From Campylobacteraceae bacterium (GTDB lineage: Bacteria; Campylobacterota; Campylobacteria; Campylobacterales; Campylobacteraceae), in contig JAISGD010000010.1 in the NCBI GenBank assembly GCA_031263195.1, positions 1 to 32,074 on the forward strand: DNA of 32,074 nt, written 5' to 3'. A program made the translations under genes and the position numbers. The number at the start of each line of letters is the position of its first letter. Position 1 is the stretch's first letter. The notes beneath the pieces were generated by a model. The model was not told the DNA's origin. It saw only the letters and a program-made list of their open reading frames with translations, and did not search any database. Below, piece by piece: positions 679 to 20,709 of the stretch.

Positions 679-718
679 ATTTATTCTGTAATTTGGATAT
701 GTTGCATACTTTAAATTT
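670..718 (+). repeat. 13-bp direct repeat at the HU/methyltransferase junction
   Basis: ATACTTTAAATTT occurs at 670-682, covering the end of the HU fragment, and again at 706-718, inside the first codons of the methyltransferase gene. The two copies are 36 bp apart. The repeat sits exactly where HU homology ends, which suggests recombination or slippage at the fusion point. Confidence 0.6.
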
Positions 719-1706
719 CATAGATTTGTTTGCTGGTGCAGGTGGGCTGTCCGAGGGCTTTATTCGAGCGGGCTACACGCTTTTGGCGCATATCGAAATG
801 GATAAGTATGCTTGTTATACGCTCAAAACCCGCGCCGCTTTTCATTACCTTAAAAGCAAAAACGAACTGCAAAAATATAAAAAATATCTGTATGAAAAAC
901 AGGAAAAGGAAGACGGCAGCAAACTTTGGGAACAAGTTTCGCAGGAAATAATCGACAGCGTTATTCACGAGGCAATCGGCGAGGACACCATAGACAAAAT
1001 TTTTGCAAAGATAGATAAACTCAAAAGCGAAAAGCAGGTTGATATTATAATTGGCGGTCCGCCTTGTCAGGCGTATTCCGTTGCAGGTCGCGCCCGAATG
1101 GGCAAAGCCGTAGAAGACGATCCGCGAAACGAACTGTACAAGTTTTATGTGAAGTTTTTGGAACGCTATCAGCCGAAAATGTTTGTATTTGAAAATGTTT
1201 TGGGTATTTGCACTGCCAAAAACGGAGAGCCGTTAAAAGCCCTCACCAGATTAGTTGAAAAGGCAGGGTATAAAATGGAGTTGAAAGTACAGACCGCTTC
1301 CGAACACGGCGTTTTGCAACACCGACAAAGAGTTATTATTATCGGGTGGAAAGTCAAAGACGAAAACGGAAATCCAACCAACTACCATTACCCCGACTTG
1401 AAACCAGAAAAAATCAAAGAAACTTTTCTCAATCGTTTTCAGGTGGTTGCCCCCTATAATTGCAGTCATACCACCGTTGTCGCTCATATTGCTATGGATG
1501 GACATTATTATATTCACCCAACTCTTAATCCGACAATAGAAAATGTGCGCTCAATAACCATACGCGAAGCCGCCCGCCTGCAATCATTTCCTGATGACTA
1601 TTATTTTGAAGGCAGCAGAAGCGCAGCATTTAAGCAGATAGGTAACGCTGTTCCTGTGGTTTTGGCTGAGAAAATTGCAAAAGAAATAAAAAAACAGTTT
1701 GAATGA
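699..1706 (+). CDS. DNA (cytosine-5)-methyltransferase
   Basis: This enzyme methylates cytosine at C5 using S-adenosylmethionine. As the first gene of the operon it should provide the modification half of the system. All the main C5-MTase motifs are visible in order: I (DLFAGAGGLSEGF), IV with the catalytic Cys (GGPPCQAYS, Cys123), VI (FENV), VIII (QHRQRVIIIG), IX (TIREAARLQSFPDDY) and X (QIGNAVPVVLAEKI). The protein is about 335 residues. The stretch between motifs I and IV is longer than usual and holds a charged helical insert (about residues 45-110). The target-recognition region between VIII and IX is short. I chose ATG 699; an in-frame TTG at 693 is also possible. Neither has a strong Shine-Dalgarno sequence, which is normal for Bacteroidota. 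The next gene starts 4 nt after the stop. The target sequence cannot be read from the protein. Confidence 0.93.
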   Translation: MLHTLNFIDLFAGAGGLSEGFIRAGYTLLAHIEMDKYACYTLKTRAAFHYLKSKNELQKYKKYLYEKQEKEDGSKLWEQVSQEIIDSVIHEAIGEDTIDKIFAKIDKLKSEKQVDIIIGGPPCQAYSVAGRARMGKAVEDDPRNELYKFYVKFLERYQPKMFVFENVLGICTAKNGEPLKALTRLVEKAGYKMELKVQTASEHGVLQHRQRVIIIGWKVKDENGNPTNYHYPDLKPEKIKETFLNRFQVVAPYNCSHTTVVAHIAMDGHYYIHPTLNPTIENVRSITIREAARLQSFPDDYYFEGSRSAAFKQIGNAVPVVLAEKIAKEIKKQFE

Positions 1707-1709
1707 GAA

Positions 1710-3185
1710 ATGTCAATAGATTATAATAATTTAGAAAAAGTTTCCGCTGAACCATATGCGTCATCAATGATTGAAACATTTAGAGCTATTGGTTACAATT
1801 TAGAGACAGCCGTCGCAGATATTATTGATAATTCCATTTCTGCCAACGCTAAAAATATATGGTTTAATTCCGAATGGCGAGGCAACGATTCCATTATTAC
1901 AATTTTAGATGACGGTTACGGAATGAATAATGATGAACTTGTGCAAGCAATGCGACCGGGAGCAAAAAATCCATTAGAAACAAGAACGGAAAAAGATTTA
2001 GGGCGTTTCGGGTTGGGGCTGAAAACTGCCTCATTTTCACAATGTAGAAAACTCATTCTTCTTAGTAAAAAAGTAAATTGCGCACCCGTTTATTGGATTT
2101 GGGACTTGGATTATGTAAATCAAACGGGCAGATGGGAACTGATTCGTCACCCCATTTCAAATGATTATATACATGCATTGGATGAGCAAACTTCCGGAAC
2201 ACTTGTAATGTGGACTCAATTGGACAGAATTGTACCGCCAAACACACAGACAGACAATGAACTTGCAAAAGAAAGATTTTTATCTCAAATGGATAAAATT
2301 AAACAACACATTGCAATGACTTTTCATAGATTTATTGAAGAGAAAAGTGTAAAAATTCATTGTTGGGGACGTGAAGTTACTGCCTGGAATCCATTTTTAG
2401 CAAACGAAACAGCTACGCAAACACTTTCAGAAGATCCTATTGGCAAAGAAGCAACAATAAAAGGTTATGTTTTGCCCCATAAAAGCCGAATACCAGAACA
2501 TGTTTATAAAAATGCAGAAGGCATAAACGGTTGGGTTAATATGCAGGGTTTTTATGTTTATCGCGGTAAACGCTTAATGTTAGCAGGCGATTGGCTCGGA
2601 ATGTTTAAACCAGAAGAACATTACAAATTGGTCCGTATTCAAATTGACTTGTCAAATTCATTGGATTCCGATTGGCAAATTGATATTAAAAAATCAGTTG
2701 CTCGACCACCATTGAAATTTAGAGAGCAAATCAAATCTTATGCAAAAACTGTTCGCTCAAGAGGTGTTGAAGTTTTTCGACACAGAGGAAAAATTTTAAC
2801 TACAAAAAACAAACAAGAATTTCAACCGCTTTGGATTGAAAAAAAGCAGGGCAATAAATATCTTTTTATTGTTAATCGTAAGCATTTAGTGATTGAAGAA
2901 ATTAAAAAGCTGGTGAAAATCGAATCGGAAAAAGCGATTGAATATTTGTTGCGATTTGTAGAAGAAACCATGCCAACAAAATCAGTTTTTATTCGTGAAT
3001 CTGAACATAATGAGATAGCAAAAGCATTTGAGATCAATTCTGAAGTTTTGAAAGCAACAATAAAAATGATTGTTACAACACAAAAAGAAAGTGGCAAAAG
3101 CATTGAACAAATTAAAACTTTACTTTTACATATGGAACCATTTGATAATTTTCCAGAACTAATAGAAACGATGGAGGATTTATGA
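1710..3185 (+). CDS. MORC/MutL-like GHKL ATPase of the R-M operon
   Basis: The 491-residue protein begins with a GHKL (Hsp90/MutL/histidine-kinase type) ATPase domain. The N-box region is ETAVADIIDNS (residues 32-42, Asn41 the likely Mg ligand), motif G1 is DDGYGM (67-72) and motif G2 is GRFGLGLKTASFS (98-110). A second domain of the MutL/MORC S5 type probably follows to about residue 330, and a helical C-terminus completes it. Such ATPases dimerise on ATP binding and act as DNA clamps. In prokaryotic R-M operons they are thought to couple recognition to nuclease loading, and they are seen as relatives of eukaryotic MORC proteins. The stop overlaps the Z1 gene by 4 nt (ATGA), so translation is coupled. 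The family call is firm; the role in this operon is inferred. Confidence 0.88.
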   Translation: MSIDYNNLEKVSAEPYASSMIETFRAIGYNLETAVADIIDNSISANAKNIWFNSEWRGNDSIITILDDGYGMNNDELVQAMRPGAKNPLETRTEKDLGRFGLGLKTASFSQCRKLILLSKKVNCAPVYWIWDLDYVNQTGRWELIRHPISNDYIHALDEQTSGTLVMWTQLDRIVPPNTQTDNELAKERFLSQMDKIKQHIAMTFHRFIEEKSVKIHCWGREVTAWNPFLANETATQTLSEDPIGKEATIKGYVLPHKSRIPEHVYKNAEGINGWVNMQGFYVYRGKRLMLAGDWLGMFKPEEHYKLVRIQIDLSNSLDSDWQIDIKKSVARPPLKFREQIKSYAKTVRSRGVEVFRHRGKILTTKNKQEFQPLWIEKKQGNKYLFIVNRKHLVIEEIKKLVKIESEKAIEYLLRFVEETMPTKSVFIRESEHNEIAKAFEINSEVLKATIKMIVTTQKESGKSIEQIKTLLLHMEPFDNFPELIETMEDL

Positions 3186-5971
3186 TAAACGAAGCAATCA
3201 AAATATGTAGAGCAATGCTCGGTGAAAAAATGAGCATAACTGACAGCGAAATTGACAACACTATTTCGCAAGTTTTGTATATGCCAATGTTTTCACGACT
3301 TGACAAGATACAACTTAAATTAGAAGTAATGAAGTTGTATAATGTCCGTCAGGATTCTTACAAAATGCTTGTTGATACAGCACGCAATACACCTTGGCTT
3401 ATTGGCTTCAAAGCAAATCATAACCAGGACCATTGGAAGTTTTGGAACAGATATATAACTTATTTGCAGAATACCAAAAACTTTGCTCCAAAAATCATAA
3501 GCGAAATCGACCGTCTTACAGACGACATTTTAGATAAACTTTACGACCCTACAGTTACAGATGTAAAAGGCATTGATAAAAAAGGATTAGTCGTTGGAGA
3601 TGTACAATCAGGCAAAACTGCAAACTATACGGGACTTATTTGTAAAGCAGCCGATTCAGGATTTAACTTAATTATTGTTTTGGCAGGAATGCACAACAAT
3701 TTGAGAAGTCAAACACAGCACCGTTTAGACGAGGACTTTCTCGGTTTTGATACCAAACATGAAAGAGCATGGAAAAATAACGAAACTAACAGAATTGGAG
3801 TAGGAATTTTAGATAGAAACAATAATGCAATTTCAATTACAACCATAGATTCTGATTTCAAAAAATCGTTAACCGACAGTGCAGGTGGAATCAGTTTTGA
3901 TGTTTCAAATCCGATTTTACTTGTCGTAAAGAAAAATTCAACGGTTTTAAAACGCTTAAATATCTGGCTGGAAACACATGGAGAAAATATTGAAGGCGAA
4001 AAAAAAATTACAAATAAATCGTTGCTAATTCTTGACGATGAAGCAGATAACGCTTCTATAAACACAAAAAAGAAAAATGAAACGCCTACGGCAATAAATG
4101 GCTGGATACGAAAAATCGCGAGCCATTTTTACCGCTATGCTTATGTTGGTTACACGGCTACGCCGTTTGCAAATATTTTCATACCACTTGATAAAGACGA
4201 TTTATTTCCACGAGATTTTATCATAAATATTCCTGCACCAAGTAACTATATTGGTGCTGAAAAAATCTTTGGTACTTCATTAGAGGCAGACGAAAACAAC
4301 GAAGATTTATTGCCGATTGTTCGTAAAATTGATGACTACAAAGAAACATTTCCAAACGGGCATAAAAAAGACGATAAAATACCTGTGTCATTGCCACTCT
4401 CATTACAAACAGCAATAAAATGTTTTATTGTTACATGTGCAATTCGTATTTTACGGGGACAGGAAAACAAACACAACTCAATGCTTATTCATGTTTCAAG
4501 ATATTTGATTTGGCAAAATTCATTAAAAGAAACTATTGAACAGCTTTTTAACTACTACAAACGAGGTATTGAGCAGAACGACAGCGGAATTTTAGAACAG
4601 TTTAAACAAATTTTTGAAGTTGACACGAACGATTATACTTCGTATAAAACTACAACACAAAATATCTTAAGTTCTTCATACAAAGATATTGACAGCAAAA
4701 TGAAAGTGCACACCTGGGAAGAATTAAAATCAAAATTGTACAGTGCTGTTCAGAAAATCAAAGTAATGTCAATCAATGGAAAATCGTCTGACGCTTTGGA
4801 ATATTACGAAAATGAAAAAACAGGAATTTCCATTATTGCAATCGGTGGCGATAAACTGGCACGAGGTTTAACTTTGGAAGGGCTGTCTGTAAGTTATTTT
4901 TTACGTGCTTCAAAAATGTATGATACACTTATGCAAATGGGGCGTTGGTTTGGTTACCGTCCAGGATATGTGGATTTGTGCCGACTTTTCACGAGCAGTG
5001 AACTCAATGAATGGTTTAGACATATCACGATGGTAAGCGAAGAGCTGAAACAAGAATTTGATGCGATGTGGAACGCCAAAGCAACACCGGAAAAATATGC
5101 TTTGCGTGTTCGCACCCACCCCGGACAACTGCAAATTACTGCAATTTCTAAAATGCGAAATACTGATAAAATTTATTTATCATGGTCGGGACGTTTAGTT
5201 GAAACCTATCAACTGCAAACCGATAAAGGAATTGTAAAGAAAAATCTTACAGCAACGCAAAATTTTCTTTCCCAACTTGGAACATATACAAATAAAGATA
5301 AAAACTATCTTTGGAAAGATGTTACACCTGACAAAGTTTTGAAATATTTTTCAGAATTTACCCTTGCACCACAACTTGTAAAAGTTGATTTATTACTGAT
5401 TAGCAATTTCATTAAAAAACTCAATGAAAACAACGAATTGAAAAGTTGGCGAATTGCTTTAATGAATAAAGAAAATTCCAGAATAAAATTCAGTGTTTCA
5501 AATCAGATTGTTTCGGGATGTTTTACTCGTAACACAGCAGGAGACACTGATACCTATGTAATCAAAAAAAATCACATTGTCGGAAATCCTGCCGATGAAT
5601 TTGTTGATATTGATAATAACACATTGCAACAAGCACTGCAAGATTCTAAACAGGACAAGGACTGGACAAAAGAATATCCCAAACCGAAAATTGTCAGAGA
5701 AAATTACAGAGATGTAAATAATCCGTTATTGCTGATTTACCCGATTGACCCTTTGAGTGCAAATCCAAAGGACAAAGACGGCAAGCCAATTCCGGAAAAA
5801 ATAATTTTCAACGATAAAGACGATGCAATAATTGGTTTTGCTATTTGTTTTCCCAAAAGCAATACCAATCACACCGTAGAATTTGCTATAAACACTGCAT
5901 TATCAAATGAATTTTATCAATCTGAAATAGATTTTGAAACCGACAACGATAACCTGGAAGACAATGAATAG
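3182..5971 (+). CDS. Z1-domain superfamily II helicase-like ATPase
   Basis: This is a 929-residue protein of the Z1 family. The helicase motifs are clear: Walker A GDVQSGKT (about 139-146), Walker B ILDDEADNAS (about 283-292), a motif III-like GYTATPFANIF (about 324-334) and a motif VI-like QMGRWFGYR (about 584-592) whose arginines would complete the ATP site. The DDEAD Walker B is typical of helicases and translocases. Residues beyond about 620 form a long C-terminal region without motifs I know. Z1 proteins occur almost only in predicted R-M or phage-defence operons, next to MORC-type ATPases and AIPR proteins. The likely role is ATP-driven DNA translocation or remodelling. It overlaps the ATPase gene by 4 nt and the DUF4420 gene by 8 nt. 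Confidence 0.9.
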   Translation: MINEAIKICRAMLGEKMSITDSEIDNTISQVLYMPMFSRLDKIQLKLEVMKLYNVRQDSYKMLVDTARNTPWLIGFKANHNQDHWKFWNRYITYLQNTKNFAPKIISEIDRLTDDILDKLYDPTVTDVKGIDKKGLVVGDVQSGKTANYTGLICKAADSGFNLIIVLAGMHNNLRSQTQHRLDEDFLGFDTKHERAWKNNETNRIGVGILDRNNNAISITTIDSDFKKSLTDSAGGISFDVSNPILLVVKKNSTVLKRLNIWLETHGENIEGEKKITNKSLLILDDEADNASINTKKKNETPTAINGWIRKIASHFYRYAYVGYTATPFANIFIPLDKDDLFPRDFIINIPAPSNYIGAEKIFGTSLEADENNEDLLPIVRKIDDYKETFPNGHKKDDKIPVSLPLSLQTAIKCFIVTCAIRILRGQENKHNSMLIHVSRYLIWQNSLKETIEQLFNYYKRGIEQNDSGILEQFKQIFEVDTNDYTSYKTTTQNILSSSYKDIDSKMKVHTWEELKSKLYSAVQKIKVMSINGKSSDALEYYENEKTGISIIAIGGDKLARGLTLEGLSVSYFLRASKMYDTLMQMGRWFGYRPGYVDLCRLFTSSELNEWFRHITMVSEELKQEFDAMWNAKATPEKYALRVRTHPGQLQITAISKMRNTDKIYLSWSGRLVETYQLQTDKGIVKKNLTATQNFLSQLGTYTNKDKNYLWKDVTPDKVLKYFSEFTLAPQLVKVDLLLISNFIKKLNENNELKSWRIALMNKENSRIKFSVSNQIVSGCFTRNTAGDTDTYVIKKNHIVGNPADEFVDIDNNTLQQALQDSKQDKDWTKEYPKPKIVRENYRDVNNPLLLIYPIDPLSANPKDKDGKPIPEKIIFNDKDDAIIGFAICFPKSNTNHTVEFAINTALSNEFYQSEIDFETDNDNLEDNE

Positions 5972-6956
5972 CATTTTAAAAATATGGAATGAAGTTGAAA
6001 AATTCAATACAAGTGGATTGTTAAAACGGCTTTACAATAGTCAGTCGCTATTGCACATTTACGCAATTTTTCAAAATCCGGAGCGGAATTACGGAATTGC
6101 TTTATCTTACAACAAAAACATTCGTATTGATATTTCCTCATTTTCCAATCTGCGAGAATTGCAAGTTTCTTTACAACATGACGCTTCATTTTCTGAAAAT
6201 AATTTATTGATTATAAAACTTTTACACTATCAAAACAAAGATGTATTTGCTGTAATGTGCGAAAATATGGTAAAAGCCGTTTTGAATTTAACAACAGAAC
6301 AGCAAATTGTAAAGGCAATTATCAACCAGCTTGAAAAATGGAAAATCCTTTTTGAAAAATTGCGTGGTGAAGGCTTGACCGTTCCAGAACAGCAAGGGCT
6401 TTATGGTGAATTACATTTTTTGAAAAAGTTTTTAGAAAAACAGGATACGATTTATGCACTTAATTCGTGGGTTGGTGCAGATAGGGAACTTCGTGATTTT
6501 CAATACGATAGCTGGGCATTGGAAGTGAAAACAACAGCAGGCAATAACCATCAGAAAGTAAATATCAGTAGCGAAAGACAACTTGATGAAACATTGCTTG
6601 AAAACTTATTTTTGTTTCATTTGTCGGTAGAAACAGCAAAGAAAAACGGCGAAAGTTTGAACGCCAAAGTAAATGCAATTAGAGAGTTTTTACAAAGTAA
6701 TCTATTAGCGTTAAACGTTTTCAATAACAAACTTTTAAATGCCGGCTATTTTGAAAATCATAAACATTTATATGAAGAACGCTGCTATCAAATTCGCTAC
6801 GAAAATTATTACAAAATCAAAGATAAATTTCCCCGCATAAAAGAAAGTGAAATTCGTAACGGCGTTGGCGATGTAAAATATTCAATAATCCTTGCTCAAT
6901 GCAATGATTATTCAGTTTCAGAAAGTGTAATTTTCAATATAGCAGGTTCAAAATGA
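5964..6956 (+). CDS. PD-(D/E)XK nuclease-fold protein, DUF4420 family
   Basis: The 330-residue protein fits the DUF4420 group of putative PD-(D/E)XK nucleases. Candidate catalytic residues lie close together: Glu149 in YGELHFL, Asp178 in RDFQYD and the Glu187-Val-Lys189 pair in LEVKTTAGN. That spacing (acidic helix residue, Asp, then E-x-K) is what a metal-dependent nuclease core needs. I chose ATG 5964, preceded by GGAAG and overlapping the Z1 stop by 8 nt; a TTG at 5934 in the same frame has no such support. The gene ends in an ATGA overlap with the AIPR gene. In this operon it is the best candidate for the DNA-cutting subunit, alone or with Vsr. Nuclease activity is inferred from the motif only. 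Confidence 0.82.
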   Translation: MNSILKIWNEVEKFNTSGLLKRLYNSQSLLHIYAIFQNPERNYGIALSYNKNIRIDISSFSNLRELQVSLQHDASFSENNLLIIKLLHYQNKDVFAVMCENMVKAVLNLTTEQQIVKAIINQLEKWKILFEKLRGEGLTVPEQQGLYGELHFLKKFLEKQDTIYALNSWVGADRELRDFQYDSWALEVKTTAGNNHQKVNISSERQLDETLLENLFLFHLSVETAKKNGESLNAKVNAIREFLQSNLLALNVFNNKLLNAGYFENHKHLYEERCYQIRYENYYKIKDKFPRIKESEIRNGVGDVKYSIILAQCNDYSVSESVIFNIAGSK

Positions 6957-9301
6957 ATGAAATAGAAAAGTTTTATCAGCAGCTAATTCAAGAAATTGTT
7001 GCACTGCAGGCAGGTAGCGAAGAGGGCGACACGCAGGAACAAACCTTTACCCGCATTGCTGTCGATATGCTGACAGAGGCAGGTGAAACAGAAAATGCCG
7101 ATGTTGTTTATGACGAAAAAGATACAGGCAAACGGGGACAACACAAAATCAACGCTTATGCTGTTGCAGATAACTACGAAACAATAGATTTGTTCATTTC
7201 TATTTTCCAAAACAATGATAATATTGGAAATATCACAAAAACTGAAATAGACAGAGCCGTAACCAGAATTTCAAATTTTTTCCGAAAAGCCACTGAAAAA
7301 GAATATTTTAACGAAATAGAAGAATCTTCGCCAATTTTTGAATTTGCGAACACACTTGCAAATTACGATGAACTCAAAGAAAATCTTGTGCGTGTTAATG
7401 CAATAATTTTAACAAATGGCGAGTATAAAAGTGAATTGCCACAAAGTGAAAAAATAAGTGGTTATAGTATTTTTTACAGAATTATTGATATAAAATATCT
7501 ATACCAGATTTCAGAACAATCACGAGTACCGATAGAAATTGATTTTAATGACTTTGAGGGTGAAAATTTTAAAATTCCATGTTTATCTGCAAACTCTCAA
7601 AATACTGATTATAGGGCATATATTGCAATTATATCCGGTACTTGTTTGGCAAAACTTTATGAGCGTTATGGTGAAAGGTTATTAGAACAAAATGTTCGTT
7701 CATTTCTACAATTTGCAGGAAAAATCAACAAAGGAATCAGAGATACCATTCGCAACGAACCTCAAATGTTTTTTGCCTATAATAACGGGATTGCGGCTAC
7801 TGCCGACCATATTGAGCTTGATGAAACAAACCATTATATTAAGAAAATCAGCAACTTGCAAATTGTGAATGGCGGGCAGACAACTGCCTCAATTTTCAAC
7901 ACAGTACGGCAATACAAAAACGATGTAGATATTTCAAAAATTTTTGTTCAGGTAAAATTTTCAATTATTGAAAACCCGGAGCAATATGCCGAAATTGTAT
8001 CAAGAATTTCACGTTATGCCAATACTCAAAATAAAGTAAATGATGCTGATTTTTCGGCTAATAATTCCACTTTGATTGCTTTTGAAAAACTGTCACGATA
8101 TATCCTTTCGCCTGTGACACCGCAAAACAACCTGCAAACTTACTGGTTCTTTGAGAGAGCGAAAGGACAATACAAAACATTGCGAAGTCGTGACGGTTAC
8201 ACGATTTCACGCAGAAATGCTTTTGATAAAAAATACCCTAAAAATCAAATGTTTGCGAAAGTTGATTTGGCAAAGTTTATTAATTCATACCAAGAAGTTT
8301 GGGACAGTAAAAAATTAGTCATTGGTCCTCATATTGCTGTTCGTGGAAATGAAAAAAACTACGCGAAATTTATCAATAACAACTTACCAGACGAAAAGAA
8401 AATCAACAGTATATATTTTGAAGACGCTATTGCAAAATGTATTTTGTTCAAAACTGCAGAAAAACGCTACGGAACAAAAAAAAACGATTATAATATTGGC
8501 GAAATGCGTCAATCGGTTGTACCTTATACACTTTCTTTAATTAATATTTTGACAGATAACAAATTAGACCTTTATAAAATTTGGAAAAATCAAAAAATAT
8601 CTGATATGCTTTCAGATTTTATTTATAGTCTAATGAAAAAAGTAAATAAATTTATTTTGGATAATTCGCCGAGTTCGCATTATATTGAATGGACAAAAAA
8701 AGAAGAATGTTGGAATGCAGTAAAAAACAACACTTGGAACGTGAATATCAACGACATAAAAGCGGATTTAATAGACGAGAACAACCCACCGAAACGCAAT
8801 ATTGGCATTGATATTTCGGAAGAAGAAATTGCCCAAAACAAAGAAATTGTAAAATCAATCCCGTCAGCACTTTGGAACAAGATTAGAATATGGGGCAAAG
8901 AGAGTGGCTATTTTGACATTACCAGGCAAAATATCGTTTCAAACATTGCTTACAATCTTCGTCAAAACAGACCATTGACCAACGAAGAATACAAAAAAGG
9001 TGTTGAACTGCTTGATATTGTAGCAAAACGAAACGAAGAGCTTTTGCAGAAAGCACTCGAATTTGAAGGCAAATGGGTGGCAATGGAAAAAGTGAAAATG
9101 TCAGACGAAGCAAAAGATAATCTAATTTCAGGGCTAATGCGTAAAATGATTACATTCAACTATGATAGAAATATTCTAACAGAAGAAGAAAACGATTTTT
9201 TGTATGATATTTTGAATGAAAAGCAAAAACGGAATTCCGATGAAACAGAAAGAATTGCAAACATTCTTGACAAATTAAAAAAGAAAGGATTTAAGGTTTA
9301 G
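6953..9301 (+). CDS. AIPR family (abortive infection phage resistance) protein
   Basis: This 782-residue protein belongs to the AIPR family, recognised by the central motif IVNGGQTTASIFN (Asn306-Gly-Gly-Gln-Thr-Thr) within a conserved block that also includes FFAYNNGIAATAD just before it. Family members are large, mostly alpha-helical at the C-terminus, and are found in defence loci, some linked to abortive infection. The biochemical activity is not established; a diverged nuclease fold has been suggested for relatives. It is the last gene of the plus-strand operon, coupled to DUF4420 by ATGA at 6953-6956. The stop is followed by a hairpin and then by the convergent vsr gene. The presence of AIPR beside Z1 and MORC ATPase genes is the main reason to read the set as one defence system. 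Confidence 0.87.
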   Translation: MNEIEKFYQQLIQEIVALQAGSEEGDTQEQTFTRIAVDMLTEAGETENADVVYDEKDTGKRGQHKINAYAVADNYETIDLFISIFQNNDNIGNITKTEIDRAVTRISNFFRKATEKEYFNEIEESSPIFEFANTLANYDELKENLVRVNAIILTNGEYKSELPQSEKISGYSIFYRIIDIKYLYQISEQSRVPIEIDFNDFEGENFKIPCLSANSQNTDYRAYIAIISGTCLAKLYERYGERLLEQNVRSFLQFAGKINKGIRDTIRNEPQMFFAYNNGIAATADHIELDETNHYIKKISNLQIVNGGQTTASIFNTVRQYKNDVDISKIFVQVKFSIIENPEQYAEIVSRISRYANTQNKVNDADFSANNSTLIAFEKLSRYILSPVTPQNNLQTYWFFERAKGQYKTLRSRDGYTISRRNAFDKKYPKNQMFAKVDLAKFINSYQEVWDSKKLVIGPHIAVRGNEKNYAKFINNNLPDEKKINSIYFEDAIAKCILFKTAEKRYGTKKNDYNIGEMRQSVVPYTLSLINILTDNKLDLYKIWKNQKISDMLSDFIYSLMKKVNKFILDNSPSSHYIEWTKKEECWNAVKNNTWNVNINDIKADLIDENNPPKRNIGIDISEEEIAQNKEIVKSIPSALWNKIRIWGKESGYFDITRQNIVSNIAYNLRQNRPLTNEEYKKGVELLDIVAKRNEELLQKALEFEGKWVAMEKVKMSDEAKDNLISGLMRKMITFNYDRNILTEEENDFLYDILNEKQKRNSDETERIANILDKLKKKGFKV

Positions 9302-9333
9302 TTATATATTAATGCTTAAACTTCATATTCAAC

Positions 9334-9354
9334 GACTATTAAAATTTTATAGTC
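9334..9354. terminator. bidirectional terminator-like hairpin between AIPR and vsr
   Basis: GACTA and TAGTC flank a self-complementary TTAAAATTTTA core, giving a near-perfect AT-rich hairpin that overlaps the vsr stop codon. On the plus strand it is followed by AGTTTT. It sits in the 51-nt gap between two convergent genes, where a shared terminator is expected. The stem is weak because it is AT-rich. Confidence 0.4.
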
Positions 9355-9790
9355 AGTTTTCCAGATGATTATCGCAAATTATTTTCGTAACTTTGTCAAT
9401 AAGCGGCGTAAGGTCGTGTTTGTATTCATGTCTTATTTCACACTCCCAAACCGTAATGACATTCCAGCCCAAAACTGTAAGTTTCTGCAAATTTACTTTG
9501 TCTCTCTCTACGTTTGAAGTGATTTTATCAACCCAAAATTTTGTATTTGTTTTTGGAGTATAGGCATATTTGCAACCTTCATGTCTGTGCCAAAAACAGC
9601 CGTGCAAAAATATAACCGTTTTATATTTAAGCAAAACAATATCTGGCTTTCCGGGCAAATTCTTATCATTCACGCGATACCTAAAGCCTCTTGCAAAAAG
9701 AGATTTGCGCAATGCCAATTCAGGCTTTGTACCTTTTGAACGAATTTTTGACATACATTCCGATCGTTTTTCTTTACTCCAAATATCCAT
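9353..9790 (-). CDS. vsr: Vsr-family very short patch repair endonuclease
   Basis: Vsr nicks DNA at T:G mismatches that arise when 5-methylcytosine deaminates, and it usually accompanies a C5 methyltransferase. The 145-residue protein has the full family layout: MDIWSKEKRSECMSKIRSKG at the start, LPGKPDIVL with catalytic Asp50, and FLHGCFWHRHEGC. Asp50, His63, His68 and His70 line up with E. coli Vsr Asp51, His64, His69 and His71; Phe66 and Trp67 correspond to the intercalating pair; nearby Cys and His residues suit the structural zinc site. The length is normal. An AGAGG site precedes the ATG. The gene is convergent with the operon. It may repair damage caused by the methyltransferase, or, as proposed for Vsr-like proteins in MORC-type R-M systems, serve as a restriction nuclease. 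Confidence 0.92.
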   Translation of the reverse strand: MDIWSKEKRSECMSKIRSKGTKPELALRKSLFARGFRYRVNDKNLPGKPDIVLLKYKTVIFLHGCFWHRHEGCKYAYTPKTNTKFWVDKITSNVERDKVNLQKLTVLGWNVITVWECEIRHEYKHDLTPLIDKVTKIICDNHLEN

Positions 9791-9867
9791 ACCGTTTTTT
9801 CCTCTAAAAACACTAAAAATTTGATTGATGAATTAAAAGCATTTTCATTTTTTGTTTCAACAACTGC

Positions 9868-10362
9868 TTAAAAAGGTATATTTACGCCCAAACTTACTCC
9901 GTGATTTCCAACATTGTTTATTTTATCGCCGCTTATATGCAAACCGTATTTATAAGTCAGCGCAACAAACGAACGCCGCCAACTAACACCAATCTCCGGA
10001 ACAAATCTAAACTCTTTTTCGCCGTAACCCGAATAGTGCGCAATGTCCGCTCCGACAACCATTTTAAATGGAAATTCTCTTTCGCGGTTTATTACTTTAA
10101 AGTCAAGTTTCACTCCTTTTAGCGAACTCTCAAGACTTTTTTCAACACCCGCTTTGATCACTATCATCTCGCCAAATTCACGTTCAAAAAAACCAAATCC
10201 GCTCTCAACGCTTACAAATTGCTCTTTTTAATATGTAAACCCGGGCGACAATACAAAGCCTGAGTCAAAAAGGTCTGAGCTAAAAAGACCAAGTGGACTA
10301 GCGTCAAAAGCCGATGAAAACAGCAGTCAAAATGCCAAAACGCTGCTTCTTATTGTTTTCAA
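9868..10362 (-). pseudogene. decayed small outer-membrane beta-barrel protein gene
   Basis: Reading one continuous frame from TTG 10362 to TAA 9868 gives 164 codons with the plan of a small outer-membrane barrel: a signal-peptide-like start (MKTIRSSVLAF, a stop, LLFSSAFDAS), alternating aromatic strands, and a C-terminus ending GVSLGVNIPF with the terminal Phe typical of barrels. Two stops interrupt it: TGA at codon 12 (10329-10327) and TAA at codon 45 (10230-10228). The start codon is TTG, but it has an AAAGGA site 8 nt upstream. The last 99 residues (from Met at 10167) are open and look like the end of an autotransporter or OmpA-like barrel. Because both stops fall in the same frame with no indels, decay seems recent. 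Sequencing error or recoding is possible but less likely. It adjoins the foreign/native junction. Confidence 0.65.
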
Positions 10363-10405
10363 TATATTTGTCCTTTTTGAAAATTTATTATAATTAAAGC
10401 TGGCT

Positions 10406-12604
10406 TTACAAATCTTGCTCTATCAATTTTTTGAACAAATCAAAATACAGCTCTTGAACTTTCACAACGCTTAACTCTATTTTTTCATCAATTATAAGTT
10501 TATCGCCCTCTACTCTTCCGATAACTCTTACATGTAAGCCTATATTTTTTGCTAACTCTTCAAAGGCTTTTTCATTTTTTACCTCAACTATCGCCCTTGA
10601 AAAACTCTCGCTAAAAAATAGCTTATCATCTTTAAAACCGGTATCTATTTTCGCGCCAAGTCCGCTAACAGCGCTCATTTTAGCAAGCGCGACAGCTAAG
10701 CCGCCCACATTTAAATCTTTAGCGCATAGCAGTAAATCTTGTTTGTTTGCCTCTATAACAAGTTCCCAAAGTTTTAACTCTTTATCATAATCAATATTCG
10801 GTAACCTGCCTTTAACAATGTCCGAAAAAACTTTAAGGTATAAACTTCCGCCAAGCTCATCGTTCGTATCTCCTAAAAGATATATCGCACTGCCCTCTTT
10901 TTGAAAAAACGAAGGCAACACTTTATTGGCGTCGTCATTTAATCCTACCATAGCTATAGAAGGCGTGGGAAACACTCCAACTCCCTCAGTTTCGTTATAC
11001 AAAGAGACGTTTCCGCTGACAACAGGAGTATTAAGAGCCAAGCAAGCCTCTTTTATTCCTTCGCAGCCTTTAGCGAATTGCCACATAACTTCCGGATTTT
11101 CAGGATTACCGTAATTTAGACAATCGGTAATCGCCAACGGTCTTGCTCCGCTCATAGCGACATTTCGACCACTCTCCATTACAGCCGCCGCCGCACCGCC
11201 TTTTGGGTCTATGTAGTTAAATCTGGGATTGCAATCGCTACTTAAACTAAGGGCTTTTCCATTTTCTTTAATGCGAATCACACTCGCGTCAAGAGATCCG
11301 GGAGCTTTTATGGTATTTGTCTGCACCATAGAATCATACTGCTCGTATATCCACGATTTATCAGCAATTTCCGGATGTGCCAAAAGCTTTTCAAAAGCTT
11401 CTTGTATATTTGGCGCTTCAAAAACGGGAATGTTTTCTATATCTTTTAAGTACTCAGGTTCTTTAATGGGACGATTTAAAATAGGAGCGTTTTCGCTAAC
11501 GGGAGCAACGGGAATATTCGCCGCCAACTCGCCGTTAAAATACAGTTCCATAACTCCCGTATCCGTAACTTCGCCAATCACTTCAGCGTCCAAATCCCAC
11601 TTTTTAAATATCTCAAGCACTTTATCTTCACAGCCTTTTTTAGCGCATATGAGCATTCTTTCTTGAGATTCGCTAAGCATAAATTCATAAGGCGTCATAC
11701 CCTCTTCGCGCGCGGGAACACGAGACAAATCCAATTTCATACCGCTGCCGCTGCGTCCCGCCATCTCAAATGAGCTTGAAGTAAGACCTGCCGCGCCCAT
11801 ATCTTGAATGCCAACGATATAATCATATTTAAATAGCTCCAAACAAGCCTCAAGCAAAAGTTTTTCGGCAAACGGATCGCCAACTTGAACGGTAGGTCTT
11901 AGAGATTTATTTTCTTCTGTAAAACTATCGCTTGCCATAACAGCTCCGCCAAGACCGTCCCGTCCCGTTTTGCTTCCCACATATATAACCGGATTTCCGA
12001 TACCCTCGGCTCGTCCGTAAAAAATCTCATCGCTTTTGCAAAGCCCTAAAGTAAAAGCGTTAACTAAAATATTTCCATTATAGCACTCGTCAAAAAATGT
12101 CTCGCCGCCTATCGTGGGAACACCCATACAGTTACCGTAATGCCCTATTCCCTCAACAACTCCCCGTACCAAATATCTCTGTTTTTTCGCCGTTTTATCG
12201 TCGCCTTCAACTCTGCCAAAACGTAAAGAGTTAAGATTTGCCACAGGACGAGCACCCATTGTGAAAACGTCTCTTAGTATTCCTCCAACTCCGGTAGCTG
12301 CACCTTGAAACGGTTCAATGAAACTCGGATGATTATGACTCTCCATTTTAAAAACAGCAGCCATACCGTCTCCTATATCTATAACTCCGGCATTTTCTCC
12401 GGGTCCTTGAATAACCCAAGCGGCTTTTGTCGGAAAACCGTTTAGATATTTTTTGCTGGATTTATATGAACAATGTTCGCTCCACATCGCAGAAAATATG
12501 CCAATTTCCAATATATTCGGTTCTCTTTGTAAAATATCTTTTATCTTTACATAATCTTCGTCTGTTAATTTATGAGCTTTTAAAATTTCAGCTGTGGTTT
12601 TCAT
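10406..12604 (-). CDS. purL: phosphoribosylformylglycinamidine synthase subunit PurL
   Basis: PurL catalyses the ATP-dependent conversion of FGAR to FGAM in purine synthesis, working with the small subunits PurS and PurQ (the glutaminase). At 732 residues it is the short, multi-subunit type found in Campylobacterota and Bacillus, not the 1,300-residue single-chain enzyme. Diagnostic segments are [15 protein letters not shown] (about 40-54), the nucleotide-site block [15 protein letters not shown] followed by [20 protein letters not shown], and [19 protein letters not shown]. The second half repeats the same fold with [13 protein letters not shown] and [13 protein letters not shown]. The ATG at 12604 fits the family N-terminus. 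A decayed copy of its first codons and upstream region lies 2.7 kb away (15268-15378). It stands alone here; neither purS nor purQ is in the window. Confidence 0.97.
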
Positions 12605-12680
12605 AGCGTAACCTTATAAAATTTTTTACAAATTGTACAAAAAAAGGGCTTATTGGCGCGTTAAAGAGCGAAAAAATAAC
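12564..12680. repeat. parent copy of duplicated purL 5' region
   Basis: This segment covers the first 14 purL codons and about 75 bp upstream. It matches 15268-15378 at roughly four positions in five by eye, including the upstream words TTACAAAT and GCTTATT.G.GCGTTAAAGA. The remaining upstream region (12681-12824) contains no gene that I can see. Confidence 0.65.
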
Positions 12681-13584: not shown

Positions 13585-15039
13585 TCATCGAGCAGTTTTT
13601 GATATATTATTGCCTTCTATATGAAAATATTTTAATTTTTTAAGCTCTTTTATCTCATCAGGCAAACTTGTCAATTTGTTGTTATTAACATAAAGATGTG
13701 TTAGATTGGTAAGATTCCCCATCTCTTTTGGCAAAAAAGCTACTTCATTATTATTTAGTGTCAATTCTCCAAGATTAGCAAGTTGTCCTATTTCGGATGG
13801 TAAAATTTTTACCTTATTTTTATCAAAACGCAGTGAAACTAAACTTGTAAGTCCGCCTATCTCTTTTGGCAAAACAGTAATTTGATTTTCAGTAAAATGT
13901 AGATATTCCAGTCGCTTCAATTCGCCTATCTCGCTTGGCAGTTCTATTAAACTGTTTTCGCTTATGTACAAGCTTTTCAGATTAACAAGTTGTCCTATTT
14001 CCAAAGGCAAATTGGTTATATTGTTTTTTATTAACGTAAGTTTTGCTAATTTTTGAAGTCCGCCTATTGTATTTGGAATAGATATAAGCCTATTTTGTCC
14101 TGCATGTAATTCATTTAAATTTTTTAGATTTCCGATAGTTTCGGGCAGAAAAGTAAGTTCATTTTTGACTATATTCAGTTCGCGTAAATTTTCAAGATTG
14201 CCTATCTGGTCTGGCAACTCTTTCAATTTATTCGCACACAAATTAAGATATGCCAAGCTTTTTAATTTTCCTATCTCTTTTGGCAAAGTTACTAATTTTC
14301 CATCTTCTGCTGTGAAATCTTTTAAATTTATAAGACCGCCTATTTCCGACGGGAGATCAGTTAATAAATTGCGGTTAATATTTAGCTTTTCCAGATTTTT
14401 AAGACCGCCTATTCCTTTGGGCATATTAATTAATTTATTACTGTTTATATTGAATTCTTTTAGATTGATAAGCAGACCTATCTCGTCAGGCAACTGTGCA
14501 ATGTGATTACTTTCAATCACCAATTTTTCTAAATTTACAAGTTTACCTGTCTCTTTGGGTAGCGCCGAGATATTATTATACGAAACATCTAAAGTTTTTA
14601 AAGATATAAGCTTTTCTATCTCCGTTGGCAAATAAGCTATTTGATTGTTGCGCGCAAAAAGATATTTTAAATTTGCGAGATTGGCTATCTCTGACGGCAG
14701 ATTAGTTAAAAGATTGCCATTAATACTTAAAACTTCAAGATTTTTAAGATTGCCTATCTCAGGAGATAAATCTTTCAAATTATTTCTTGATAAATTTAAC
14801 AATTTAAGCTCCAAAAGCTCTTTTTTGCGCCGCGGAAGACCTTCAAAATATTTTCCATCAGCGGTATATTGAGCAGGCGGTATGCCATTATCGTCAGCCC
14901 AAGTCCAAAGCCTTTGCATCCAATTATCTTCAAAGATGATTTCTATTGGAGATATTTTATAATGTACCCAGTAAAATATCGTTGTTGTAGTGCTTATAAA
15001 CGAAATTAAAATAAGCAAACAGATAAAAAACTTTTTCAT
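13585..15039 (-). CDS. membrane-anchored or exported leucine-rich repeat protein
   Basis: The 484-residue protein starts with a hydrophobic segment (residues 4-25, an uncleaved anchor or signal), then a linker to about residue 79. From residue 80 to 470 there are 17 uninterrupted leucine-rich repeats of exactly 23 residues, followed by a partial eighteenth. The consensus is roughly LxxLxLxxNxLxxLPxEIGxLxN, the bacterial form close to Ras-suppressor/SDS22-type LRRs. Such arcs bind proteins; partners cannot be predicted. The odd degree of regularity, with no indels in 391 residues, points to growth by internal duplication. GGAG lies 10 nt before the ATG. It lies upstream of the beta-solenoid-like gene on the same strand (25-bp gap). 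No catalytic domain (for example a NEL ligase) is attached. Confidence 0.88.
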   Translation of the reverse strand: MKKFFICLLILISFISTTTTIFYWVHYKISPIEIIFEDNWMQRLWTWADDNGIPPAQYTADGKYFEGLPRRKKELLELKLLNLSRNNLKDLSPEIGNLKNLEVLSINGNLLTNLPSEIANLANLKYLFARNNQIAYLPTEIEKLISLKTLDVSYNNISALPKETGKLVNLEKLVIESNHIAQLPDEIGLLINLKEFNINSNKLINMPKGIGGLKNLEKLNINRNLLTDLPSEIGGLINLKDFTAEDGKLVTLPKEIGKLKSLAYLNLCANKLKELPDQIGNLENLRELNIVKNELTFLPETIGNLKNLNELHAGQNRLISIPNTIGGLQKLAKLTLIKNNITNLPLEIGQLVNLKSLYISENSLIELPSEIGELKRLEYLHFTENQITVLPKEIGGLTSLVSLRFDKNKVKILPSEIGQLANLGELTLNNNEVAFLPKEMGNLTNLTHLYVNNNKLTSLPDEIKELKKLKYFHIEGNNISKTAR

Positions 15040-15441: not shown

Positions 15442-15831
15442 ATGAAAAAACTACTGCTTTTGTGTCTAATAAGCGCTGTTTGCTTCGCGCAATCAACGCT
15501 TGATTTTGATAAAAATAAAGAGCTTTGCGACAAAAAAAACGATGCTAAAGCTTGTTCTTTAGTCGGTTCTTTATACGCTTTAAAAGATAAGCCTGACTAT
15601 GAAAAAGCTATAGAATATACTGTAAAAGGTTGCAACGGTAAAGATGCAAACGGATGCTTGTCGGTAGGCAGTGCATATTTGATGGGTGCGGGTGTAGAAA
15701 AAGATGAAACAAAAGCGATGCAATTTTATAAAAAAGGTTGCGATTTAAAAGATGAATTAAGCTGCGAAATGTATAAAAGTAATGGCCAAACATTGAAAGA
15801 TATATTAAGCGATTTTGAAGATGATGAGTAG
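15442..15831 (+). CDS. small exported Sel1-repeat protein (A)
   Basis: A 129-residue protein with a signal peptide (MKKLLLLCLISAVCFAQ, cleavage after CFA) and two Sel1-like repeats: one around KACSLVGSLYALKDKPDYEK and one around NGCLSVGSAYLMGAGVEKDE, each ending in a YxxKGC-type segment. Paired cysteines in each repeat match the HcpA/Hcp cysteine-rich family of Campylobacterota, in which disulphides tie helix pairs in the periplasm or outside. It has a good AAGGA site. It is followed 22 nt after its stop by the second Sel1-type gene, so the pair probably forms an operon. Role unknown; relatives bind proteins or peptidoglycan fragments. Confidence 0.85.
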   Translation: MKKLLLLCLISAVCFAQSTLDFDKNKELCDKKNDAKACSLVGSLYALKDKPDYEKAIEYTVKGCNGKDANGCLSVGSAYLMGAGVEKDETKAMQFYKKGCDLKDELSCEMYKSNGQTLKDILSDFEDDE

Positions 15832-15853
15832 GAATATAACTAAAAGGACGAAT

Positions 15854-16345
15854 ATGAGAAAATTATTAGTTTTGATTTGTTGTGCCGGTTTTTGTTTTGC
15901 GAATGCAGATGTAGACAAATTAGTAAAAAAGTTTCAAGACGGTTGTGATAATAATAAATATGACGATTGTTTGCAACTTGCTATGATGTATGATAACAAC
16001 CCGTTCGCACCGCAAATGCACGATAAAGACAAAGCTGCGGAATATTACGGCAAAAGTTTACAAATTTTGAAAAAAACTTGTCTAAACGGCGATGCAAGAA
16101 ATTGTTTAAAGATTGGGAACTTTTATTTTGACGGATCTTTTAATGTTGAAAAAAATGGCGATAAAGCGTATGAATACTTTAAAAAAGGCTGCTTTGATTT
16201 AAAAAGCGGAGAAACTTGTTATATGGCGGGAAGTATTTACAAAACAGCTAAAGACGAAATAAAAGCAACCGAATTTATTGAAAAGTCTTGTGAGCTTAAA
16301 TACCCTATATGTTTATACGAAAAACAAATGGAGTCAAATAAATAA
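15854..16345 (+). CDS. small exported Sel1-like Cys-rich protein (B)
   Basis: The protein has 163 residues from ATG 15854, which is preceded by AAAAGGA. An in-frame ATG at 15815 overlaps gene A and would bury the signal peptide, so I reject it. The signal peptide is MRKLLVLICCAGFCFANA. The mature part has Sel1-type helix pairs, each marked by Cys pairs (GCDNNKYDDCLQLAMMYDNN; NARNC-like LKIGNFYFDG; YFKKGCFDL..GETCYMAGSIY; EKSCELKYPIC). It belongs to the same Hcp-like group as gene A, but the closest match is gene C at 16649: the last 90 bp of the shared part (16214-16305) are identical or nearly so. Probably periplasmic or secreted. Confidence 0.85.
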   Translation: MRKLLVLICCAGFCFANADVDKLVKKFQDGCDNNKYDDCLQLAMMYDNNPFAPQMHDKDKAAEYYGKSLQILKKTCLNGDARNCLKIGNFYFDGSFNVEKNGDKAYEYFKKGCFDLKSGETCYMAGSIYKTAKDEIKATEFIEKSCELKYPICLYEKQMESNK

Positions 16346-16349
16346 AAGT

Positions 16350-16514
16350 AACGTTTAAAAACATTCTTTTTGTAAATTCTTACGAATTTGCAAGTATTGT
16401 TCCGCTTTTTAGAACGGTTTCCAGTATCATGTTAGCAACTATCGTACCGCCATGACATTGAAATTCAATCATATCTTTTGTCGTATAACTATTGGGAATT
16501 ATTTTCTTGACCAT
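16350..16514 (-). pseudogene. mnmE: fragment of mnmE (tRNA modification GTPase)
   Basis: On the minus strand the frame reads IIPNSYTTKDMIEFQCHGG, then IVANMILETVLKSG, ILANS, a TAA stop, and EFTKRMFLN. This matches the end of the N-terminal folate-binding domain of MnmE, where the hallmark is SYTxEDxxEFQCHGG followed by ANPGEFTKRAFLNGK. The stop replaces PG. Both ends are missing: it begins near 16514 and breaks off just before the end of Sel1 gene B. A working mnmE must be elsewhere in the genome. The rest of this gap (16515-16627) holds no gene apart from the promoter repeat. Confidence 0.75.
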
Positions 16515-16564
16515 TTGCCATAGTTATAGTTTCAATCAAATCAAAAATGTAATGTCTTCATAAT

Positions 16565-16627
16565 AACTTATTTGGTGTGTTAAAAAGTGAGAAACTATTT
16601 TAAGATAACTTTCCTATTTTTTCTGCT
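16565..16627 (+). repeat. upstream repeat, copy 2, with damaged promoter
   Basis: This copy matches 15350-15412 but the -10 box has changed from TATTAT to TATGAC (16624-16632), and the ribosome binding site that follows has changed from AAGGAT to AAGAT. Confidence 0.75.
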
Positions 16628-16648
16628 ATGACGTTATCAAGATTTACC

Positions 16649-17203
16649 ATGAAAAAACTATTAGTTTTGATTTGTTGTGCTGGTTTTTGTTTTGCAAATG
16701 CGGATATAGACAAATTGGCAAAAGATATTCAAGATGGTTGCGATAACGGTAAATATGATGATTGTTTACAACTTGCTATGATGCATGACAACAATCCGTT
16801 CGCACCGGAAATGCGCAATAAAAATAAAGCCGCCGAATACTACGACAAAGGTATACAACTTTTGGAAAAAATTTGCTCAAACGGTGATGCAAAAAAGTGT
16901 TTAGAGATTGGAAGTTTTTATTTGGATGGAAATAGAGCTTTTGGTATTAAAAAAAATGGCGATAAAGCACATGAATTTTTTAAAAAAGGCTGTTTTGATT
17001 TTAAAAATGGAGAAACTTGTTATATGGCGGGAAGTATTTACAAAACAGCTAAAGACGAAATAAAAGCAACCGAATTTATTGAAAAGTCTTGTGAGCTTAA
17101 ATACCCTGTATTTTTATCAACGCCATCGTTATACGGCTCTGCTTTGAAACCTTCAAACTTCTTTATAAACTCAAATAGACTTGACATAAAAACTCCTTAT
17201 TAA
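16649..17203 (+). CDS. mosaic Sel1-like protein (C), probably decaying
   Basis: From ATG 16649 the frame gives 184 residues; an in-frame ATG at 16628 would precede the signal peptide and is rejected. The upstream region and first 12 bases copy gene A, the body copies gene B (signal peptide MKKLLVLICCAGFCFANA, then the Cys-paired Sel1 repeats with a few extra residues), and after CELKYP the protein switches to 30 residues (VFLSTPSLYGSALK...) that are simply the antisense of a lysozyme gene fragment. The final Cys pair is therefore lost. The -10 box and Shine-Dalgarno sequence are both damaged relative to gene A. It may still be translated but is best read as a degenerating duplicate. Confidence 0.6.
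   Translation: MKKLLVLICCAGFCFANADIDKLAKDIQDGCDNGKYDDCLQLAMMHDNNPFAPEMRNKNKAAEYYDKGIQLLEKICSNGDAKKCLEIGSFYLDGNRAFGIKKNGDKAHEFFKKGCFDFKNGETCYMAGSIYKTAKDEIKATEFIEKSCELKYPVFLSTPSLYGSALKPSNFFINSNRLDIKTPY
17108..17187 (-). pseudogene. 5' fragment of a phage-type GH24 lysozyme gene
   Basis: An AAGGAG site (17198-17193) and ATG at 17187 open a frame reading MSSLFEFIKKFEGFKAEPYN followed by DGVDKNT, the start of T4/lambda-type (GH24) lysozymes; the Glu in FEGF is the catalytic position. Normally NTIGYGH would follow, but the frame runs into the antisense of Sel1 gene C at about 17108 and soon stops. This is a remnant left by a recombination event, with no activity expected. Confidence 0.65.
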
Positions 17204-18993: not shown

Positions 18994-20487
18994 TCACTTC
19001 ACCACAATAGACACTCCAACTCCTTTTGGTACAACAAACCACTCGCTATATGTATTGGTTGTGGGTTTTCTCAAAAACGGAAAATGAGCGTTTGGAGCTA
19101 ATGTCGCGGGTGACGATACAGGCAGTTTACGATATTGTCTGTACGTATTTCCATCAAATGCTTCTAAACTAAAACCGTTATCATTACTTCTGGCAGGATA
19201 TCCAAATCCTTTGGGAGCAGTTGAAAACATAGCTATGCTGGCTCCCCAATTACGCAAGGCTTTAACTAAACCTCCGTCGTCATATACTTTGATAGCTTTA
19301 TCCAAAGCATCAGTAGATGAACCGCTTGTTCTAAGCAGCGTCTTATAAAAATCTATACCGTATTGACGCATTAAGAATGACCCGAAGCTGCCTCCCATGT
19401 CATAGACACTACATTCTTCCGAGCCAAAACTACAATGATAAAGCGGTGTACTAAGCCAATTTCCGTATCTATTTTTGACTGCATTATATGATATATTGCT
19501 GCTTATCACATCTTCCATCATTACAGCCGTCATCTCTTCCAAAAAGGATTTATACTTATTGTCGCTGCCACTGCCCATCAGAACATAACGTTGATAGAAG
19601 TTTATGGCATGAGTCAGTTCATGGGCTATTGTGGCAAGTGTATATCCGTTATCCATACGCGTATGGATAAATATAACCAATGCTTCATTGGATTTGGATA
19701 CATAATTATTAGCACTGGTAAAATACCCTCCTACACTACCGCCGGTATTATAAAATACTATATCCAAAGGTTGGTTGCTCGATATTAGAGTTAAGTATTT
19801 GTGCGCTCCCCAAGGTTCTCCTGCCACACTGACTACATTAGTGTATATATCATTAATATAAGACGCTATATAATTGATCCTGGCTGTATCCATTCCTCCA
19901 TTTGCATACTCACTATCCTCAACCCATAGATTGATAGTGCGTCCGTTAACCGTTAACTGTTTTCTAAGAGTTGACGTGCGAGTTCCACCACCGCAACAAC
20001 TATGAATGCGCCAATTATATTTATTCCCTTCATTCCATACTTTATACGAAGGGGCTTGATTTAGTTTTAAGTCATCACTTTGTTCTATCAATTCGTCAGG
20101 CTCAAAGTCTATTACTGCATCGGGAAGATAGTTGAATATACCTTCATATGGATATATCTCATTTTTAAAAGTCTTATCGATATAAATAGAAGGCATAGTA
20201 ACATAACCGCTTCCTTCGTTTGTATAGACAATAGTTATCTCTTTATCTGCTATATTAGCCATAGAGACAGTTAGATTGACATTGCTGTTTCCGCTGTTTT
20301 TATAACTCCAGACATCATTACCTGTACCGGTATATGAATTCAGACTGTTGCCGCAAGAATCTCCGTTACATTGAATTACTGCTTTTACTTCACATTTACC
20401 GATAGTCACATTGCCGTATTCGTCAACACAGCAACCCGCCAGAAATAGAGCAGGCAGTAAAATCAAAATCGCTTTAATCTTTCTCAT
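18994..20487 (-). CDS. M30-type zinc metallopeptidase, lipoprotein
   Basis: The 497-residue protein starts at ATG 20487, preceded by AAAGGA; the TTG at 20493 is too close to be preferred. It opens with a lipoprotein signal (MRKIKAILILLPALFLAGCC, lipobox LAGC). The zinc-binding helix is ATIAHELTHAINFYQRY with HELTH at residues 289-293; KSFLEEMTAVMMEDVI about 25 residues later supplies the third ligand Glu, the arrangement of the M30 (hyicolysin) family. Residues 22-130 form a separate N-terminal, Ser/Asn-rich beta domain with Cys pairs. The C-terminal third is unrecognised. It should be anchored in a membrane, most likely on the outer membrane, and degrade extracellular or periplasmic proteins. 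The substrate is unknown. It is transcribed alone. Confidence 0.82.
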   Translation of the reverse strand: MRKIKAILILLPALFLAGCCVDEYGNVTIGKCEVKAVIQCNGDSCGNSLNSYTGTGNDVWSYKNSGNSNVNLTVSMANIADKEITIVYTNEGSGYVTMPSIYIDKTFKNEIYPYEGIFNYLPDAVIDFEPDELIEQSDDLKLNQAPSYKVWNEGNKYNWRIHSCCGGGTRTSTLRKQLTVNGRTINLWVEDSEYANGGMDTARINYIASYINDIYTNVVSVAGEPWGAHKYLTLISSNQPLDIVFYNTGGSVGGYFTSANNYVSKSNEALVIFIHTRMDNGYTLATIAHELTHAINFYQRYVLMGSGSDNKYKSFLEEMTAVMMEDVISSNISYNAVKNRYGNWLSTPLYHCSFGSEECSVYDMGGSFGSFLMRQYGIDFYKTLLRTSGSSTDALDKAIKVYDDGGLVKALRNWGASIAMFSTAPKGFGYPARSNDNGFSLEAFDGNTYRQYRKLPVSSPATLAPNAHFPFLRKPTTNTYSEWFVVPKGVGVSIVVK

Positions 20488-20709
20488 TTTCAATTCCTTT
20501 TATATAACCCCTTTGCAAAATATCGCTCCTGATGAACTCATACCACATAGTATGGAAATGCTTAAAATATATTTATAAATACTACCAGTGTTTATAAATT
20601 GAGGTGATTATATGTCGTTGTTAATAGTTTTTCAACTCTTTATTTGAAGTTGTAGGGGAGAATTTTTTAAATTTTTTTCTGCTTCCATTGTCAAGCTTAA
20701 TGGAGATTG

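Follow-up and report, generated by a model that had tools for sequence, protein, structure and literature searches.

Gene content of the window

The window analyzed here comprises bases 1–32,074 of contig C10 (183,723 bp) from the Campylobacteraceae genome G000, a 1.79 Mb assembly of 32 contigs (reported completeness 99.68%, contamination 0.27%) that may be a metagenome-assembled genome (MAG). The relatives compared were 13 further genomes of the same genus and the remainder of the 153 genomes in the family. The left block of the window (~690–9790) encodes a C5 cytosine methyltransferase, a GHKL ATPase, a Z1 ATPase, a DUF4420 protein, an AIPR protein, and a convergent vsr gene. Window position 1 is also contig position 1, and the foreign block runs to the very end of the contig; no homology to bases 1–560 was found among the loci compared. 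The principal features are as follows.

489–519, + strand: Bacteroidota-type promoter-like site TTTG-N19-TAATTTTG, 5′ of the HU stub (pattern match)
560–678, + strand: 5′ stub (39 codons) of an HU-type DNA-binding protein gene (HU-HIG match; frame in MAG G159)
693–1706, + strand: C5 cytosine methyltransferase lacking ~95 residues (PF00145; alignment with eight relatives)
1710–3185, + strand: MzaB-like GHKL (MutL/MORC-type) ATPase (PF13589, E 2e-31; PADLOC MzaB, E 4e-107)
3182–5971, + strand: MzaC-like Z1-domain ATPase (PF10593, E 3e-84; PADLOC MzaC, E 1e-171)
5934–6956, + strand: MzaD-like DUF4420 protein, putative PD-(D/E)XK nuclease (PF14390, E 1e-78; PADLOC MzaD, E 4e-23)
6953–9301, + strand: MzaE-like AIPR protein (PF10592 and PF22879; PADLOC MzaE, E 3e-76)
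9353–9790, − strand: Vsr-type endonuclease, convergent with the operon (PF03852; TIGR00632 above cut-off; alignments end here)
9791–9867, no strand: junction, bases between foreign and native homology (alignment ends on both sides)
9868–10360, − strand: native barrel-like outer-membrane gene, broken in the window (homology to same-genus genomes)
10406–12604, − strand: purL, the native anchor next to the hotspot (AIRS domains; 95% amino acid identity to G005)

The reading frames of MzaB–E and Vsr are uninterrupted. In a dN/dS comparison meant to probe whether the operon is silent, most pairs were not computable and the remainder had synonymous divergence near 1 or above. The native part of the window also encodes a leucine-rich-repeat protein with many repeats (13585–15039), a run of near-copy Sel1/TPR-like secreted protein genes (15442–17203) that matches a comparable run beside purL in G005, and a protein of the peptidase M30 family that starts like a lipoprotein (18994–20493).

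An earlier sequence-only reading had listed an HU stub and promoters among Bacteroidota marks on the left side. The stub is indeed present and ends just 5′ of the methyltransferase gene; its residues 3–37 match HU-HIG weakly (E 0.0055, below the cut-off, profile positions 1–35), and it matches the HU frame of the Bacteroidales MAG G159 at 68% over 28 residues. The promoter claim held in part: a site exists at 489–519, yet it is weak evidence by itself, the motif not being enriched in the window (6 found versus 3.2 expected, with 12 of 100 shuffles reaching 6). Six of the seven Bacteroidales relatives carry TAnnTTTG 27–49 nt upstream of the methyltransferase. The Bacteroidales MAG with locus L002 has an HU frame truncated in a similar way near a methylase-like gene. 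At L209 (G159:C37, near contig position 50163), a truncated HU frame (55 aa open) stands ahead of defence-like genes, the arrangement seen in the window. Such cassettes may repeatedly enter Bacteroidales genomes at HU genes.

Comparison with known systems

A predicted type II Z1/DUF4420/cytosine-methyltransferase/AIPR system with a MORC protein, described by its authors as reminiscent of mzaABCDE (PMC9523054, which prints DUF4220 where Pfam here gives DUF4420), resembles the window operon by domains and description: both combine a Z1 protein of ~925 aa, a PD-(D/E)XK protein, a cytosine methyltransferase, an AIPR protein, and a MORC-type GHKL ATPase in one operon. The window differs in its convergent vsr and in a methyltransferase without the target-recognition region. 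Likewise, the GHKL, Z1, DUF4420, and AIPR genes follow the order B-C-D-E of MZA and match the PADLOC models, whereas the C5 methyltransferase comes first in the operon here, and the NCBIfam equivalog scores stay under their cut-offs (MzaB 414/850, MzaC 676/1500, MzaE 346/1050 bits). MzaA is a sigma factor (PMC9523054), and no such ORF was found between position 1, where the contig begins, and 9790. Because the scores fall short of the NCBIfam cut-offs and MzaA was not found, the operon is, as judged from sequence, Mza-like and outside MZA proper. MORC/paraMORC-type restriction-modification operons predicted from gene neighbourhoods (PMC2292703) also pair a GHKL ATPase and a helicase-type ATPase with a cytosine methylase, a restriction-fold nuclease, Vsr, and AIPR; in contrast to these, the methylase is damaged here and the host phylum differs from that of the nearest relatives. 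We infer the mechanism proposed below from the protein families of PMC9523054 and PMC2292703.

Bacteroidales ancestry of the left block

For every left-block gene the best match is in Bacteroidales, at 72–90% amino acid identity: MzaB–D are nearest to loci L002/L004 (72–80%), MzaE to L009 (77%), Vsr to L033 (88%), and the methyltransferase to L008 (90% over a partial 127 residues). Since the nearest relatives differ gene by gene, the left block is, on these matches, a mosaic of Bacteroidales lineages. Unrelated Bacteroidales loci carry the same gene set, including vsr in its convergent position, and the block therefore moves as a unit; some Bacteroidales relatives have one extra gene 3′ of the methyltransferase. 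No donor closer than ~80% (MzaC) is known, and no near-identical copy of the block was found on plasmids.

Codon usage, profiled along the window as the earlier reading had proposed, switches at the junction. With a Bacteroidales background free of Mza genes, MzaC, MzaD, MzaE, and the methyltransferase rank among the lowest 0–3% of native genes, and the signal is weaker for MzaB (10%) and Vsr (16%); against Bacteroidales Mza genes, a comparison that favours homologues, all six left-block genes fall in the lowest 0–1%. The barrel-like gene, purL, and the rest of the right-hand genes are within the range of native genes. The G+C profile of the window does not by itself mark the junction.

The junction

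The sharp change of DNA type that had been placed at about 9.8 kb was confirmed by the alignments. Position 9790, the start codon of vsr, is where the DNA alignments to five vsr-bearing Bacteroidales loci (L004, L007, L033, L034, and L005) all end, each having run through that gene. From the other side, same-genus alignments begin at 9867–9870 (G005, 90% identity over 9870–12665; G007, 77% starting at 9870; G012, 76% starting at 9867), which is where the barrel-like gene next to purL has its stop codon. The 76–79 bases between the two homology edges match neither side; because intergenic DNA diverges fast, the breakpoint is placeable only to 9791–9868 and may lie anywhere within that interval. 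A candidate target-site duplication (AAGCAGTT) flanks both sides, but 94 of 300 shuffles reach as much, and it is no evidence of one. No integrase, duplication, or other mobile-element signature was found.

A defence hotspot and the probable far side of the island

In G005, a single contig carries the native order: the barrel and lipoprotein genes lie ~0.5 kb apart, followed by tRNA-Thr, a malY-like gene, and purH. The barrel-like gene is intact there (160 aa) and open only over 9868–10167 in the window. At this site G005 carries an AbiP2-like fragment, and G012 and G001 both carry GmrSD proteins; a further contig of G012 has a methyltransferase and an HNH protein next to the lipoprotein gene. 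Conserved flanks thus enclose differing defence genes in G000, G001, G005, and G012, which makes the site a defence hotspot, with both flanks on one contig only in G005. Several relatives have contigs that break off within or close to this interval, which is what variable DNA would lead one to expect. Recurrence of these genes with the same flanks in other Campylobacterota had been named as a sign of a resident island: the native flanks do recur in the genus, with other defence genes between them, and therefore the site is resident and the cassette an arrival. A different Mza-like operon (~38% in MzaC) lies directly beside purH in G013, another species of the genus (L115, G013:C104, 441–10274), and points to a second defence site nearby.

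In G000 the lipoprotein gene, tRNA-Thr, the malY-like gene, and purH are all on another contig, C22, where they are preceded by a ureI-like gene. This ureI-like block is native (88% match to G003 from C22:4410). The beginning of the contig (C22:1–3917) is Bacteroidales-like defence DNA in the expected orientation; it encodes GmrSD, a frameshifted methyltransferase that shares 78–86% DNA identity with that of the window, and a third methyltransferase of which the 5′ end is present. This last remnant (L113, 3807–3917) is of the same family and breaks off at the point where GmrSD and the second methyltransferase start; cassettes seem to be layered onto the starts of methyltransferase genes. The orientation fits a single island running from C10:9868 to C10:1, across a gap, and from C22:1 to ~C22:3917–4409, in which the adjacency of C10:1 and C22:1 is deduced from this arrangement.

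State of the methyltransferase and of the system

The left block had been described as a complete defence system, a description that the methyltransferase contradicts. An in-frame loss of ~95 residues at ~1409–1413 removes the segment between the QxRxR motif and motif IX, which is the target-recognition region in C5 methyltransferases and which is kept in all eight aligned relatives; the N-terminal catalytic motifs and motifs IX–X are retained. An extra Thr lies slightly downstream of the loss. The sister methyltransferase on C22 keeps the target-recognition segment and is a pseudogene, frameshifted and cut.

Going by their families, the GHKL and Z1 ATPases would detect invading DNA or remodel it, nucleases of the DUF4420 and Vsr types would cleave it, the AIPR protein would add an abortive-infection arm, and the methyltransferase would normally mark self DNA. 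With the ~95 residues missing, self-marking by the window methyltransferase has probably been lost, and for that reason the operon in this host is most likely silent or attenuated, or independent of a methylation mark. The effector genes are open although both visible methyltransferases are damaged, which leads to a reading that we regard as unlikely: this Mza-like branch might tell self from foreign without a methylation mark of its own and still act against phages in its new host.

Origin of the island

We conclude, with a probability of roughly 0.9, that a Bacteroidales-type defence cassette was acquired by this Campylobacteraceae lineage and sits in a chromosomal hotspot that extends from purL and the barrel-like gene to the ureI-like, lipoprotein, tRNA-Thr, malY-like, and purH genes, the window showing one end of the island and C22 the other. 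The cross-phylum transfer considered by the sequence-only reading is supported by the Bacteroidales ancestry of the left block together with the native far flank on C22. The cassette would have arrived as DNA from a Bacteroidales and may have been fixed through recombination with the flanking DNA, in keeping with the lack of an integrase or duplication at the junction.

The opposing proposal, that contigs of a Bacteroidales and a Campylobacteraceae were falsely joined in assembling a mixed sample, accounts for a foreign block that reaches the contig end and for the two clear origins of the sequence. It does not sit well with C22, an independent contig that changes to the same kind of DNA at the other edge of the same native interval and in matching orientation: two independent false joins flanking one native interval (2 of 64 contig ends) would be very unlikely. 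Relatives hold defence genes at the same site, reported contamination is low, and no second Bacteroidota-type HU was found in G000 with the HU-HIG marker (one ordinary 94-aa HU frame only); the small contigs of G000, read by eye, contained no Bacteroidales block. A chimera by assembly was therefore rejected on the C22 evidence, and we consider it highly improbable. Even smaller is the chance that the block is an old resident of the genus that merely resembles Bacteroidales DNA. Mza-like systems do exist in same-genus G007 and G013 and in two other genera of the family, yet they are only ~24–40% identical to the window genes (Vsr up to 58%). The Z1 tree contradicts an old residency, grouping the window with three Bacteroidales at 100% support and placing nine Campylobacteraceae homologues far away (two of these are long-branched and their own places are unsure). 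The interval also holds other genes in G001, G005, and G012, and codon usage in the block is still foreign.

A less settled matter is whether the acquired island came in one transfer or was assembled stepwise from several Bacteroidales-type cassettes. Stepwise assembly is a serious contender that we rate at somewhat under even odds: the left-block genes point to different Bacteroidales, and two more methyltransferases are represented on C22, one of them broken and the other reduced to a 5′ stub. On the other hand, the same gene order exists as a block in Bacteroidales, and the mosaic may predate a single transfer.

The locus is a well-bounded example of a defence cassette of several genes passing from Bacteroidales into Campylobacteraceae, and both flanks of the insertion can be seen. 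It also illustrates that a suspected chimera can be judged without reads when the native far side is found on another contig. The comparison marks out a defence hotspot beside purL in this genus. A damaged methyltransferase beside open effector genes would offer a direct test of whether methylation is needed for sparing the host's own DNA.
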